Part shown: positions 29,211-35,483 of the stretch, in pieces | Layout: every line of letters begins with the position of its first letter | How positions within the stretch are numbered: position 1 is the stretch's first letter | NCBI GenBank assembly: GCA_947444785.1 | Contig: CANFBG010000008.1 | Location: 1 to 36,591 of the forward strand | Length of the DNA stretch: 36,591 bases | Origin: Microbacteriaceae bacterium | GTDB lineage: Bacteria > Actinomycetota > Actinomycetes > Actinomycetales > Microbacteriaceae | Direction of reading: 5' to 3' | Program-made: the position numbers and the translations under genes | The notes under the pieces: model-generated | Seen by the model: the letters and a program-made list of their open reading frames with translations, nothing else | Database searches by the model: none | What the model was told of the DNA's origin: nothing

Positions 29211-29267
29211 CGCGCGGTTCCGGCGGCCTGATTTTGCGGGCAAAGCCCGGTGGTGGAAGATTCACTC

Positions 29268-29921
29268 ATGAGCCACAGCGATCACCACTCCGACCACGAC
29301 GCAGTCCACGAAACCGACACCGTCGGCGACAAGTGGGACAGGCGATACTCCGAGATGGCGGAGCTGTGGAGCGGGGAGCCGAATGCGACCCTCGTGAAGG
29401 AGACGCGTGGGCTTCGCCCCGGGCGCGCGCTCGACGTCGGCTGTGGCGAGGGGGCGGATGCCATCTGGCTGGCCGACGAGGGCTGGAAGGTCACCGCATT
29501 GGACGTCTCGAAGGTGGCGCTCGACCGTGCCGCGGCCCAGGCCGTTCTCGTCGGCGTTCAGGTGCGCTGGCTGCACTCGGGACTGGTCGAGGCAGGCTTG
29601 GCGCCGCGCACCTTTGAACTGGTCACCGCCCAGTACCCCGCACTGCCGCGTACCGAGGACAACGCCGCCGAGCGTGCGCTGATGGATGCCGTGGCGCTCG
29701 GTGGAACGCTGCTCATCGTGCATCACCCGGTACCCGCCGATGCTGAAGCCAACTCCCACGGCTTCAATCTCAGAGACTACGTAGGCCCGTCGCATGTCGC
29801 CGCGCTGTTGGGTGACAACTGGGAGATCGAGGTCGACGAGACCCGTCCCCGGCACGTCGCCACCGGTGCCGGATCGCACCACACCGAGGATGTCATCCTG
29901 CGGGCGCGCCGCCTGGGCTGA
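29268..29921 (+). CDS. Class I SAM-dependent methyltransferase with His-rich N-terminus
   Basis: This is a methyltransferase of about 217 residues. The start is the ATG at 29268 with GGAAGA about eight bases upstream; the track start at 29250 is a GTG before it. The first 17 residues (MSHSDHHSDHDAVHETD) are His/Asp-rich and could bind metal. Then come KWDRRYSEMAELWSGEPN and the SAM motif GRALDVGCGEGADAIWLADEGWKVTALDVS, as in TehB or thiopurine-type methyltransferases. A role in metalloid or thiol detoxification is possible but not shown. Confidence 0.9.
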   Translation: MSHSDHHSDHDAVHETDTVGDKWDRRYSEMAELWSGEPNATLVKETRGLRPGRALDVGCGEGADAIWLADEGWKVTALDVSKVALDRAAAQAVLVGVQVRWLHSGLVEAGLAPRTFELVTAQYPALPRTEDNAAERALMDAVALGGTLLIVHHPVPADAEANSHGFNLRDYVGPSHVAALLGDNWEIEVDETRPRHVATGAGSHHTEDVILRARRLG

Positions 29922-29940: not shown

Positions 29941-30648
29941 ATGGCTACAGTAATCCTCGTTCGACACGGTCGCACCACCGCCAATGCAACGGGCATGCTC
30001 GCCGGGAGAACGCCCGGTGTGCTCCTCGACGAGGTCGGCCGGGCGCAGGCGACAGCAACGGGGGAGAGGCTGGCCGTCGTGCCGCTCGTCGCCGTGGTCT
30101 CGAGCCCGCTGGAGCGCTGCGTGGAGACCTCGCGGTTCATTCTCGACCGCCAGCCTGCCTCGCTCGTGATGCCGATCGAAGACGACCTCAACGAGTGCGA
30201 CTACGGCGACTGGCAGGGCCGCGCGCTCGGCGAGCTCGCCAAGGAGTCGCTGTGGCCCAAGGTGCAGGCGCATCCTGCGGGCGTCACATTCCCCGGCGGG
30301 GAGTCGATGGCCTACATGCAGGCGCGCTCCGTCGCGGCGATTCGGCGTCTCGATGCCGCCTTCGAGGCCGAGCACGGCCCGGGCGCAGTGTGGGTCGCGG
30401 TGAGTCACGGCGACATCATCAAATCGATCCTTGCCGACGCCTACGGCATGCACCTCGACCTCTTCCAGCGCATCAACGTGGGCCCGGCCTCGGTGTCGAT
30501 CATCCGCTACGGGGCGAATCGCCCCGACGTCATCTCGACCAACACCGATTCGGGCGACCTGTCGTGGCTTCGAGCGGCGGCGCCCGTCGGCGACGCGCCG
30601 GTCGGTGGCGGGGCGGGCCATCAGGCTGTACCCGAGTCGCGCTCCTAA
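29941..30648 (+). CDS. Histidine phosphatase / phosphoglycerate mutase-like protein (MSMEG_4193 type)
   Basis: This 235-residue enzyme belongs to the histidine phosphatase superfamily. The phosphorylated His is in the RHG motif (Arg8-His9-Gly10). Arg59 (SPLERC), the acid Glu85 (LNECDYGDWQG) and His156 (VAVSHGDI) complete the site. It is followed by DUF3090 and SCO1664-family genes, the partners of the MSMEG_4193-type putative phosphomutases in actinobacteria. The substrate is unknown. The C-terminal 25 residues are Gly/Ala-rich. The TAA stop is also the first half of the -10 box of the next gene. Confidence 0.93.
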   Translation: MATVILVRHGRTTANATGMLAGRTPGVLLDEVGRAQATATGERLAVVPLVAVVSSPLERCVETSRFILDRQPASLVMPIEDDLNECDYGDWQGRALGELAKESLWPKVQAHPAGVTFPGGESMAYMQARSVAAIRRLDAAFEAEHGPGAVWVAVSHGDIIKSILADAYGMHLDLFQRINVGPASVSIIRYGANRPDVISTNTDSGDLSWLRAAAPVGDAPVGGGAGHQAVPESRS

Positions 30649-30651
30649 GAT
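30646..30651 (+). promoter_or_regulatory. -10 box TAAGAT for leaderless DUF3090 transcript
   Basis: TAAGAT is built on the TAA stop of the phosphomutase-like gene and is followed by 6 nt (ATCTCC) and the ATG at 30658. The operon may therefore have an internal leaderless promoter. Confidence 0.5.
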
Positions 30652-30657
30652 ATCTCC

Positions 30658-31206
30658 ATGCCAACAATCGTCCATGAGTTCGCCTGGCCCGATCGCGTCG
30701 TCATCGGCACCGTCGGTCAGCCTGGGTCGCGCACCTTCTACCTGCAGGTTCGCAGCGGCCGGCAGATCGTCAGCGTCACGCTCGAGAAGCAGCAGTCCAT
30801 GCTCTTGGCCGAGAAGATCGATGAGATCCTCGACCAGCTGATGGCCACCGAGGGCAACCCGCTCAGCATTCCGACGATCACCCCCATTGAGCTCGTCGAC
30901 AACGACCCGCTCGAGCAGCCCGTGCAGGAGGAGTTCCGTGCCGGGGCCATGGGACTGGGTTGGGATCCCTCGACGGCGCAGATCGTGATCGAGGCTTTCC
31001 CGACGGTGGAGTCCGATGAGGACGAATCTTTCGAGGAGACGACGTCGCCCGAGGAAATGCTCGTCGTTCGGATCCCTGTCGGTACCGCCCGCGCATTCTC
31101 CATGCGCACTCGCGAGGTCGTCGGTGCCGGTCGCCCGCTCTGCCCGCTCTGCGCCAACCCCGTGGACCCGGAAGGTCACACCTGCACCTTCCCCGACGGC
31201 TTCTAA
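30658..31206 (+). CDS. DUF3090 protein with C-terminal zinc-knuckle-like motif
   Basis: This 182-residue actinobacterial protein of unknown function has a beta-rich N-terminal part (VVIGTVGQPGSRTFYLQVRSGRQIVSVTLEKQQ). A conserved stretch follows around EEFRAGAMGLGWDPSTAQIVIEAFP, then an acidic linker (ESDEDESFEETTSPEE). The end reads CPLCANPVDPEGHTC: Cys162, Cys165, His174 and Cys176 form a C-x2-C-x8-H-x-C set able to bind zinc. It lies 9 bp after the phosphomutase-like gene and 2 bp before the SCO1664-like gene. Confidence 0.92.
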   Translation: MPTIVHEFAWPDRVVIGTVGQPGSRTFYLQVRSGRQIVSVTLEKQQSMLLAEKIDEILDQLMATEGNPLSIPTITPIELVDNDPLEQPVQEEFRAGAMGLGWDPSTAQIVIEAFPTVESDEDESFEETTSPEEMLVVRIPVGTARAFSMRTREVVGAGRPLCPLCANPVDPEGHTCTFPDGF

Positions 31207-31208
31207 CC

Positions 31209-31976
31209 ATGGCTGAGGCCAGGCTCCTCGACGGCAGCCTCGAGCTCACCGGTCGAATCGAGACGGCCTCGAACGCGAGCTTCCTCGGCAGCATCGACGG
31301 CGTGCTGGTGATCTATAAGCCGATTGCCGGGGAGCAGCCGCTGTGGGACTTTCCCGACGGTGACCTCGCGGGTCGCGAGGCTGCGGCCTACCTCGTGTCA
31401 GAGGCGTTCGGCTGGAATGTGGTGCCCCAAACGTGGCTCCGCGACGGCCCGCTGGGCATGGGCATGGTGCAACTTTGGCAGGAGACCGACCCGGAACAGG
31501 ATGCCGTCGACCTGGTCGCCAAGAAGGCCGTGCCCGAGAGCGGATGGCGGCGGGTTTTCGACGGCAAAGACGAGCGGGGCCGCTCGGTTGCCCTCATCCA
31601 CGAGGACTCAGCGGCTCTTCGACGGATGGCGGTGTTCGACGTCGTCGTCAACAATGCCGACCGCAAGGGCGATCACGTTCTGGCGATGGCCGACGGTCAC
31701 CGTTACGGCGTCGATCACGGGCTCACCTTCCACGCCGAGCACAAGTTGCGAACGGTGCTGTGGGGCTGGCTGGGTGAAGACCTCAACGACGCCGAGCGAG
31801 AGGGCATCGCCCGGGTGCGCGCAGCCCTTGGCGCTGAGCTCGGCCAGTCGCTCGAAAGCCTGATCACGGCGGAGGAGATCCAGGAATTGGCTGCCCGATG
31901 CGATCGTCTTCTTGCTGAGGGCACATTCCCGGCCCCGCAGGGTCGGATGCCCGCGGTGCCCTGGCCTCTGTTCTAG
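31209..31976 (+). CDS. SCO1664-family protein, kinase-like
   Basis: This is a 255-residue actinobacterial protein. Motifs resemble HipA/PI3-4-kinase-type enzymes: an ATP-site lysine in VLVIYKPIAGEQPLWDFP (Lys37), EAAAYLVSEAFGWNVVPQTWLRDGPLG, a catalytic-loop-like FDVVVNNADRKGDH (143-156) and a metal-site-like GVDHG (167-171). I infer a small-molecule or protein kinase, which would balance the phosphatase-type enzyme two genes upstream. In many actinobacteria this trio is found near the mycothiol gene mshC; here no mshC follows. Its start is 2 bp after the DUF3090 stop, so the genes are translationally coupled. Confidence 0.88.
   Translation: MAEARLLDGSLELTGRIETASNASFLGSIDGVLVIYKPIAGEQPLWDFPDGDLAGREAAAYLVSEAFGWNVVPQTWLRDGPLGMGMVQLWQETDPEQDAVDLVAKKAVPESGWRRVFDGKDERGRSVALIHEDSAALRRMAVFDVVVNNADRKGDHVLAMADGHRYGVDHGLTFHAEHKLRTVLWGWLGEDLNDAEREGIARVRAALGAELGQSLESLITAEEIQELAARCDRLLAEGTFPAPQGRMPAVPWPLF

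Positions 31977-33122: not shown

Positions 33123-35483
<2,361 letters not shown>

Follow-up and report, generated by a model that had tools for sequence, protein, structure and literature searches.

A conserved phosphatase-DUF3090-kinase trio located away from mshC in a Microbacteriaceae genome, and its candidate role in reversible phosphorylation

The window analyzed here (36,591 bases) is one whole contig of the 263-contig assembly of a Microbacteriaceae bacterium. It carries three genes in the order phosphatase, DUF3090, and SCO1664-family protein, all on the plus strand, and the open reading frames agreed with the tight packing given in a preliminary description of this DNA, with gaps of 9 bp (phosphatase/DUF3090) and 2 bp (DUF3090/kinase). 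The genes and their presumed functional residues are as follows.

29941..30648, plus strand: MSMEG_4193-family histidine phosphatase ("putative phosphomutase"), 235 aa; TIGR03848 302 bits, PF00300 154 bits
29962..29970, plus strand: RHG motif of the phosphatase (R8, H9, G10), with H9 as the phospho-acceptor histidine
30115-30117, plus strand: R59 of the phosphatase site, invariant in 36 orthologues
30193-30195, plus strand: E85 of the phosphatase site, at least 90% conserved in 36 orthologues
30406-30408, plus strand: H156 of the phosphatase site, invariant in 36 orthologues
30658..31206, plus strand: DUF3090/TIGR03847 protein, 182 aa; TIGR03847 240 bits
31141..31185, plus strand: C162-x2-C165-x8-H174-x-C176, putative zinc site; conservation assessed in 43 orthologues
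31209..31976, plus strand: SCO1664-family predicted kinase of PI4KII/HipA fold, 255 aa; TIGR03843 359 bits
31317..31319, plus strand: K37 of YKP, the presumed ATP-binding lysine (role inferred from the fold), invariant in 43 orthologues
31659..31676, plus strand: catalytic loop D151-R152-K153-G-D-H156, with D, R, K, and H invariant; aligns with NTDRGNDN of PI4KII
31713..31721, plus strand: D169-H-G, metal-binding DFG equivalent, with D169 invariant; aligns with IDNG of PI4KII

Because all three proteins exceeded the curated cut-offs by a wide margin (302 versus 204 bits for TIGR03848; 240 versus 117 for TIGR03847 and 225 versus 27 for PF11290; 359 versus 172.4 for TIGR03843, over profile positions 2-253 of 253), the window locus is, as judged from sequence, a further copy of a trio already known. 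A gene for a SAM-dependent methyltransferase (29250-29921) ends 19 bp upstream of the phosphatase gene and is possibly cotranscribed with the trio; no relative of it was found at any other fetched trio locus. A UvrA-like ABC protein, as read from its sequence, is encoded at 33123-35483 and was not conserved beside the trio elsewhere. Promoter/terminator and Rfam scans found nothing.

The preliminary description had put the trio forward as an undescribed system. This does not stand, as NCBIfam has curated models of all three families, the link to mshC has been published (PMC4255298), the Mycobacterium tuberculosis phosphatase Rv2135c has already been assayed (PMC3866925), and the CxxC..HxC motif of DUF3090 has been noted earlier (PMC9425974). 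What lies in the window is an already recognized, strongly conserved trio. DUF3090 orthologues have also been mentioned in passing in transposon-screen and interactome tables, and in the literature searched we found no assays of the SCO1664-family kinase or of DUF3090. The TIGRFAM notes, as we understand them, already treat these families as one system of three genes in which the probable kinase is related to PI kinases.

The histidine-phosphatase site was intact, as had been proposed: RHG, R59, E85, and H156 were all present, and across 36 orthologues R8, H9, R59, and H156 were invariant and E85 was conserved in at least 90%. The active-site residues and the PF00300 match (154 bits) place the protein in branch 1 of the histidine phosphatase superfamily, and by family it appears to be the orthologue of Rv2135c. 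In assays, Rv2135c behaved as an acid phosphatase with a high Km and broad activity, had small phosphomonoesters as substrates, and showed no phosphoglycerate mutase activity (PMC3866925). The kinase and its partner could also catalyze successive steps, the former producing a (bis)phosphate and the latter, a protein of phosphatase fold, acting as a true mutase. While the NCBIfam name "putative phosphomutase" and the constant pairing of the two enzymes would fit such a scheme, the behavior of Rv2135c, a phosphatase lacking phosphoglycerate mutase activity, argues against it, and we regard it as very unlikely.

The middle protein ends in the C-x2-C-x8-H-x-C tail that had been pointed out before. 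Among 43 DUF3090 orthologues, C162, C165, and C176 were invariant and H174 was conserved in at least 90%, giving the four conserved ligands expected of a candidate zinc ribbon or knuckle. In the predicted structure (pLDDT 86), a beta-rich body that includes two beta-alpha units precedes the C-terminal metal-ligand motif. No significant fold match to DUF3090 was found in the PDB, the best hit being human PURA (E 0.039, prob 0.41, TM 0.27-0.32). A weak alignment of the two halves of the protein with each other (probability 42%) hints at a strand-helix unit that is repeated, which we treat as a lead only. DUF3090 may plausibly bind zinc and could serve as an adaptor.

The YKP, NNADRKGDH, and VDHG elements noted in the preliminary description were all present in the SCO1664-like protein, and its key residues (K37, E57, D151, R152, K153, H156, and D169) were invariant in 43 kinase orthologues that were 35-52% identical to the window protein. 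The structure prediction suggested there, with comparison to the HipA and PI4K folds, yielded a PI4KII/HipA kinase fold with a kinase-type active site. The AlphaFold model, built from the 43 orthologues, had a mean pLDDT of 95.4, and its best Foldseek hits were PI4KII-beta (1.8e-6), CtkA (1.1e-5), and PI4KII-alpha (1.4e-5); a profile search of PDB sequences, independent of Foldseek, also ranked PI4KII first (3.2e-6). The profile alignment paired NNADRKGGH with NTDRGNDN of PI4KII, and IDHG with IDNG. PF00454 matched 41 of the 43 family members at E<=0.1, and HipA_2 matched 9 of them, weakly. The window kinase itself scored below the Pfam PI3_PI4_kinase cut-off (19.5 versus 27.1 bits), no HipA model matched it in Pfam, and no HipB gene is adjacent, the neighbors being the phosphatase and DUF3090. 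The replacement of the catalytic-loop Asn of PI4KII by His156 makes the SCO1664 family distinct, and it also means that kinase activity is not certain. From the model, we expect the SCO1664-family protein to work like a kinase of the PI4KII/HipA fold, and we do not assign it as a PI4 kinase. The closest named copy of the kinase was that of Cryobacterium cryoconiti (77% identical), which fits a Microbacteriaceae-like source for the window. A record titled Vibrio cholerae 35D (WNZI01000005.1, L108) carries an actinobacterial trio with a kinase 69% identical to that of the window, which suggests that this assembly is mislabelled or contaminated. No viral copies of the kinase were found.

To place the trio across the phylum, 60 loci were fetched from 59 genomes sampled across Actinomycetota. 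At 58 of these, far more than chance would give, phosphatase, DUF3090, and kinase followed one another directly in this order and on the same strand, with gaps mostly <110 bp; the exceptions were a second copy in genome G008, which lacks DUF3090, and a noise-level hit (L084). The order was kept with and without mshC as a neighbor, in keeping with the earlier suggestion that the trio can stand as an independent unit, and the trio is inherited as one ordered unit. Among 150 Microbacteriaceae, kinase and phosphatase occurred in exactly the same 41 genomes, 39 of which had DUF3090; the two that lacked it belong to one genus. In Gryllotalpicola (L158), phosphatase and kinase stand with no DUF3090 between them, and in the control genome of Corynebacterium glutamicum, both enzymes scored over the cut-off with no TIGR03847 match. 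Since kinase and phosphatase were always together and DUF3090 was sometimes missing, the pair forms the core that cannot be reduced further, DUF3090 can be dispensed with, and the pair has persisted without DUF3090 on at least two occasions. The distances of the three genes were correlated (r 0.66-0.68), which shows that they share a history but does not tell function from linkage. The second copy in G008 is a distant-type phosphatase-kinase pair (L036) beside a separate full trio. Apparent DUF3090-kinase fusions at two loci (L164 and L168) were rejected as artefacts, the first of a frameshift and the second of a stretch of undetermined bases; in Curtobacterium flaccumfaciens (L164 6455-7768, CP121450.1), the frameshift breaks DUF3090, running into the kinase gene, and the broken gene reads as a pseudogene or a sequencing error.

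Apart from uppP and mshC in some Actinomycetes, no constant fourth partner gene was found at the fetched loci. This bears on the idea that the trio combines a protein kinase of HipA/CtkA type with a dedicated phosphatase, the kinase modifying Ser/Thr of a cellular protein such as a translation or cell-wall enzyme, the phosphatase undoing this, and DUF3090 selecting the target. CtkA, a HipA-type Ser/Thr protein kinase, is among the best solved fold matches, HipA_2 matched 9 of 43 members weakly, and a putative zinc protein would fit target binding. However, the best fold matches were to PI4KII, Rv2135c acts on small phosphomonoesters, and no constant partner gene offers itself as the target; we therefore consider a protein substrate unlikely, if still worth serious attention.

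The preliminary description had also stated that mshC was absent and that the trio often sits beside it. The gene is missing from the window only: in the host genome, it is present on another contig (C249), directly after uppP, in the arrangement M20 peptidase-uppP-mshC, and the trio does not separate uppP from mshC there. The neighborhood with mshC held for most non-Micrococcales Actinomycetes examined, with the trio between uppP and mshC in Streptomyces-like genomes, Nocardioidaceae, Kribbella, and Mycobacterium-like genomes, but not for the Micrococcales examined, in which uppP and mshC were together where seen and the trio was located away. As this separation runs throughout the Micrococcales examined, having the trio apart from mshC characterizes the wider group and not the host genome alone. 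Two loci showed intermediate arrangements in which mshC-uppP-M20 runs on the opposite strand near the trio: the distance is at most 6 kb in Arthrobacter sp. H5 (L179) and about 9 kb in genome G417 (L267). SCO1664 has been described as always linked to mshC (PMC4255298), but constant linkage holds for only part of the phylum.

The neighborhood of uppP raises the possibility that the trio works on the cell wall carrier lipid, through its phosphatase and a lipid kinase, in undecaprenol/undecaprenyl-phosphate metabolism. Rv2135c has been tentatively tied to uppP and undecaprenyl metabolism (PMC3866925), many Actinomycetes have uppP upstream of the trio, and uppS lies two genes downstream of it in one distant group. 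In Microbacteriaceae, however, uppP and mshC are together without the trio, and at most of the distant loci neither uppP nor uppS is present. Moreover, recO-uppS is a common housekeeping neighborhood, and we hold a role in carrier-lipid metabolism to be remote.

We next looked at which genes co-occur with the kinase. Across 297 genomes, kinase and MshA were found together in 112, kinase only in 8, MshA only in 11, and neither in 166 (phi 0.87), and outside the host class the corresponding counts were 82, 8, 11, and 161 (phi 0.84); the 120 kinase genomes counted leave out one noise-level hit, and the phi values ignore phylogeny and may reflect few clade-level events. The association with MshC, divergent forms counted, was looser than that with MshA (phi 0.64 over the 297 genomes), and in 50 genomes with the kinase no MshC was found at the threshold applied. 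The distant MshA calls appear to be real, because proteins sampled from trio genomes outside the host class kept the phosphate-contacting residues K78 (R in one), Y110, T134, and R154, and because several distant mshA genes share a flanking gene with Streptomyces mshA. We take these residues to be the inositol-phosphate contacts of the C. glutamicum structure; their numbering was confirmed by counting residues in C. glutamicum MshA. Each of the three MshA-like proteins taken from genomes without the trio had lost one or two phosphate-contacting residues. Within Microbacteriaceae, the MshA profile was discarded as a test, being uninformative because orthologue and paralogue scores merge there at 290-368 bits.

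Divergent MshC proteins scored 380-445 bits, short of the TIGR03447 cut-off (485), and were separate from CysS in 11 trio genomes with both genes; the curated cut-off probably misses real MshC. Such genes were seen in distant Actinomycetota (loci L183-L194, in genomes G130, G216, G016, G100, G031, and others), and within ~3-8 kb of a PIP-synthase-like gene in G031, G016, G130, G100, and G198. Genomes such as G001, G009, G024, G037, and G121 have MshA and the trio with a single MshC/CysS-like gene at or near CysS-level score, and the inositol-phosphate residues of MshA were conserved in those checked (G001, G009, G037, and G121). In these genomes, GlcNAc-inositol may have a non-mycothiol use.

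In Microbacteriaceae, all 41 trio genomes have mshC, while 51 of the 92 mshC genomes lack the trio; the trio is thus not required for mycothiol as such. In 11 of 11 trio-less mshC genomes checked, MshA had all its phosphate-contacting residues. These counts weigh on whether the trio phosphatase is MshA2, the GlcNAc-Ins-P phosphatase of mycothiol synthesis, for which we know of no firm gene assignment; the kinase and DUF3090 would then control this enzyme or recycle the intermediate. The co-occurrence of the kinase with MshA and the mshC linkage in many Actinomycetes speak for this assignment, as does the MshA2 phosphatase step drawn between MshA and MshB (PMC2628429, PMC9736012). Against it, the phosphatase is not found in Microbacteriaceae wherever an Ins-P-using MshA and MshC occur: 51 mshC genomes are without a TIGR03848 phosphatase, and the Ins-P phosphate site of MshA was kept in 11 of 11 checked. 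As those 51 genomes need another phosphatase, the trio enzyme could be MshA2 only in some lineages, and the fact that mycothiol does not require the trio weighs against its being the only MshA2. We judge the assignment improbable. We see a similarly small chance for a dedicated phospho-cycle between GlcNAc-inositol phosphate, which MshA makes, and the dephosphorylated compound, in which the phosphatase would perform the MshA2 step in most lineages and the kinase would reverse or control it. If such a cycle were true, the trio system would predate MshC, and the many distant Actinomycetota that have MshA and the trio with no detected MshC would be expected to use GlcNAc-inositol in a second way that does not depend on MshC.

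A further candidate is a phosphatidylinositol kinase paired with the PIP phosphatase of mycobacterial PI synthesis. The PI4KII fold would fit this, the PIP phosphatase of that pathway has yet to be identified (PMC6506517), and PIP-synthase-like genes were present in all 15 distant trio genomes tested. In contrast, no PIP synthase was found in any of the 25 trio-bearing Microbacteriaceae tested, host included (best 43.7 bits versus a cut-off of 170), which, with phosphatidylinositol availability judged by the PIP-synthase route only, argues against a phosphatidylinositol kinase. This reading is largely refuted and hardly credible to us, and phosphatidylinositol is probably not the substrate.

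Together, these results lead us to propose, at somewhat less than an even chance, that the trio is a reversible-phosphorylation module whose substrate is perhaps on the MshA/inositol branch. In this module, the SCO1664-family kinase would use ATP to phosphorylate a hydroxyl of one substrate, and the MSMEG_4193-family histidine phosphatase would remove the phosphate added by the kinase or an equivalent one, so that both enzymes would act on the same compound. DUF3090, with its putative zinc site, would be an accessory that may dock or regulate the kinase-phosphatase pair and that is occasionally dispensed with. More tentatively still, the co-occurrence data hint that the substrate might lie on the GlcNAc-inositol phosphate branch opened by MshA.

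New here are the independence of the trio from mshC across the Micrococcales examined, the kinase-phosphatase core pair, the kinase-MshA co-occurrence over 297 genomes, and the evidence against phosphatidylinositol in the host family. The phylum that includes M. tuberculosis and Streptomyces conserves the pair, and the surveys narrow the search for its substrate to one that is probably not phosphatidylinositol and not strictly tied to mycothiol, and that has a strong association with MshA. The trio phosphatase is now testable as MshA2 and is an unlikely candidate for the mycobacterial PIP phosphatase.

Among known systems, the type II PI4-kinases (4PLA, 4WTV, and 9HHM) share with the window kinase the fold (1.8e-6 to 1.4e-5), the DR catalytic loop, and the ID[HN]G motif, but they are ~450 aa long compared to 255 aa and only 16% identical, their catalytic-loop Asn is His in the window protein, and the host family is without PIP synthase. 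HipA and CtkA protein kinases are likewise similar in fold (CtkA 3AKK, E 1.1e-5), at 10% identity, whereas the window kinase is paired with a phosphatase and has no HipB-type antitoxin partner. The window phosphatase and Rv2135c belong to the same family by annotation and have the same Arg, Glu, and His site after RHG/RHA, the motif being RHA in Rv2135c and RHG in the window protein. After its own family, the nearest function-assigned model was the alpha-ribazole phosphatase CobC, with the window protein (103 bits) falling below the CobC cut-off of 163 bits. The closest relative of the locus as a whole is the MSMEG_4193/DUF3090/SCO1664 trio of M. tuberculosis and other actinobacteria, in which we take Rv2134c and Rv2133c to be the counterparts of DUF3090 and SCO1664; the families, far above their cut-offs, and the order and strand are the same, while the window and the other Micrococcales examined differ in having no trio inserted between uppP and mshC.
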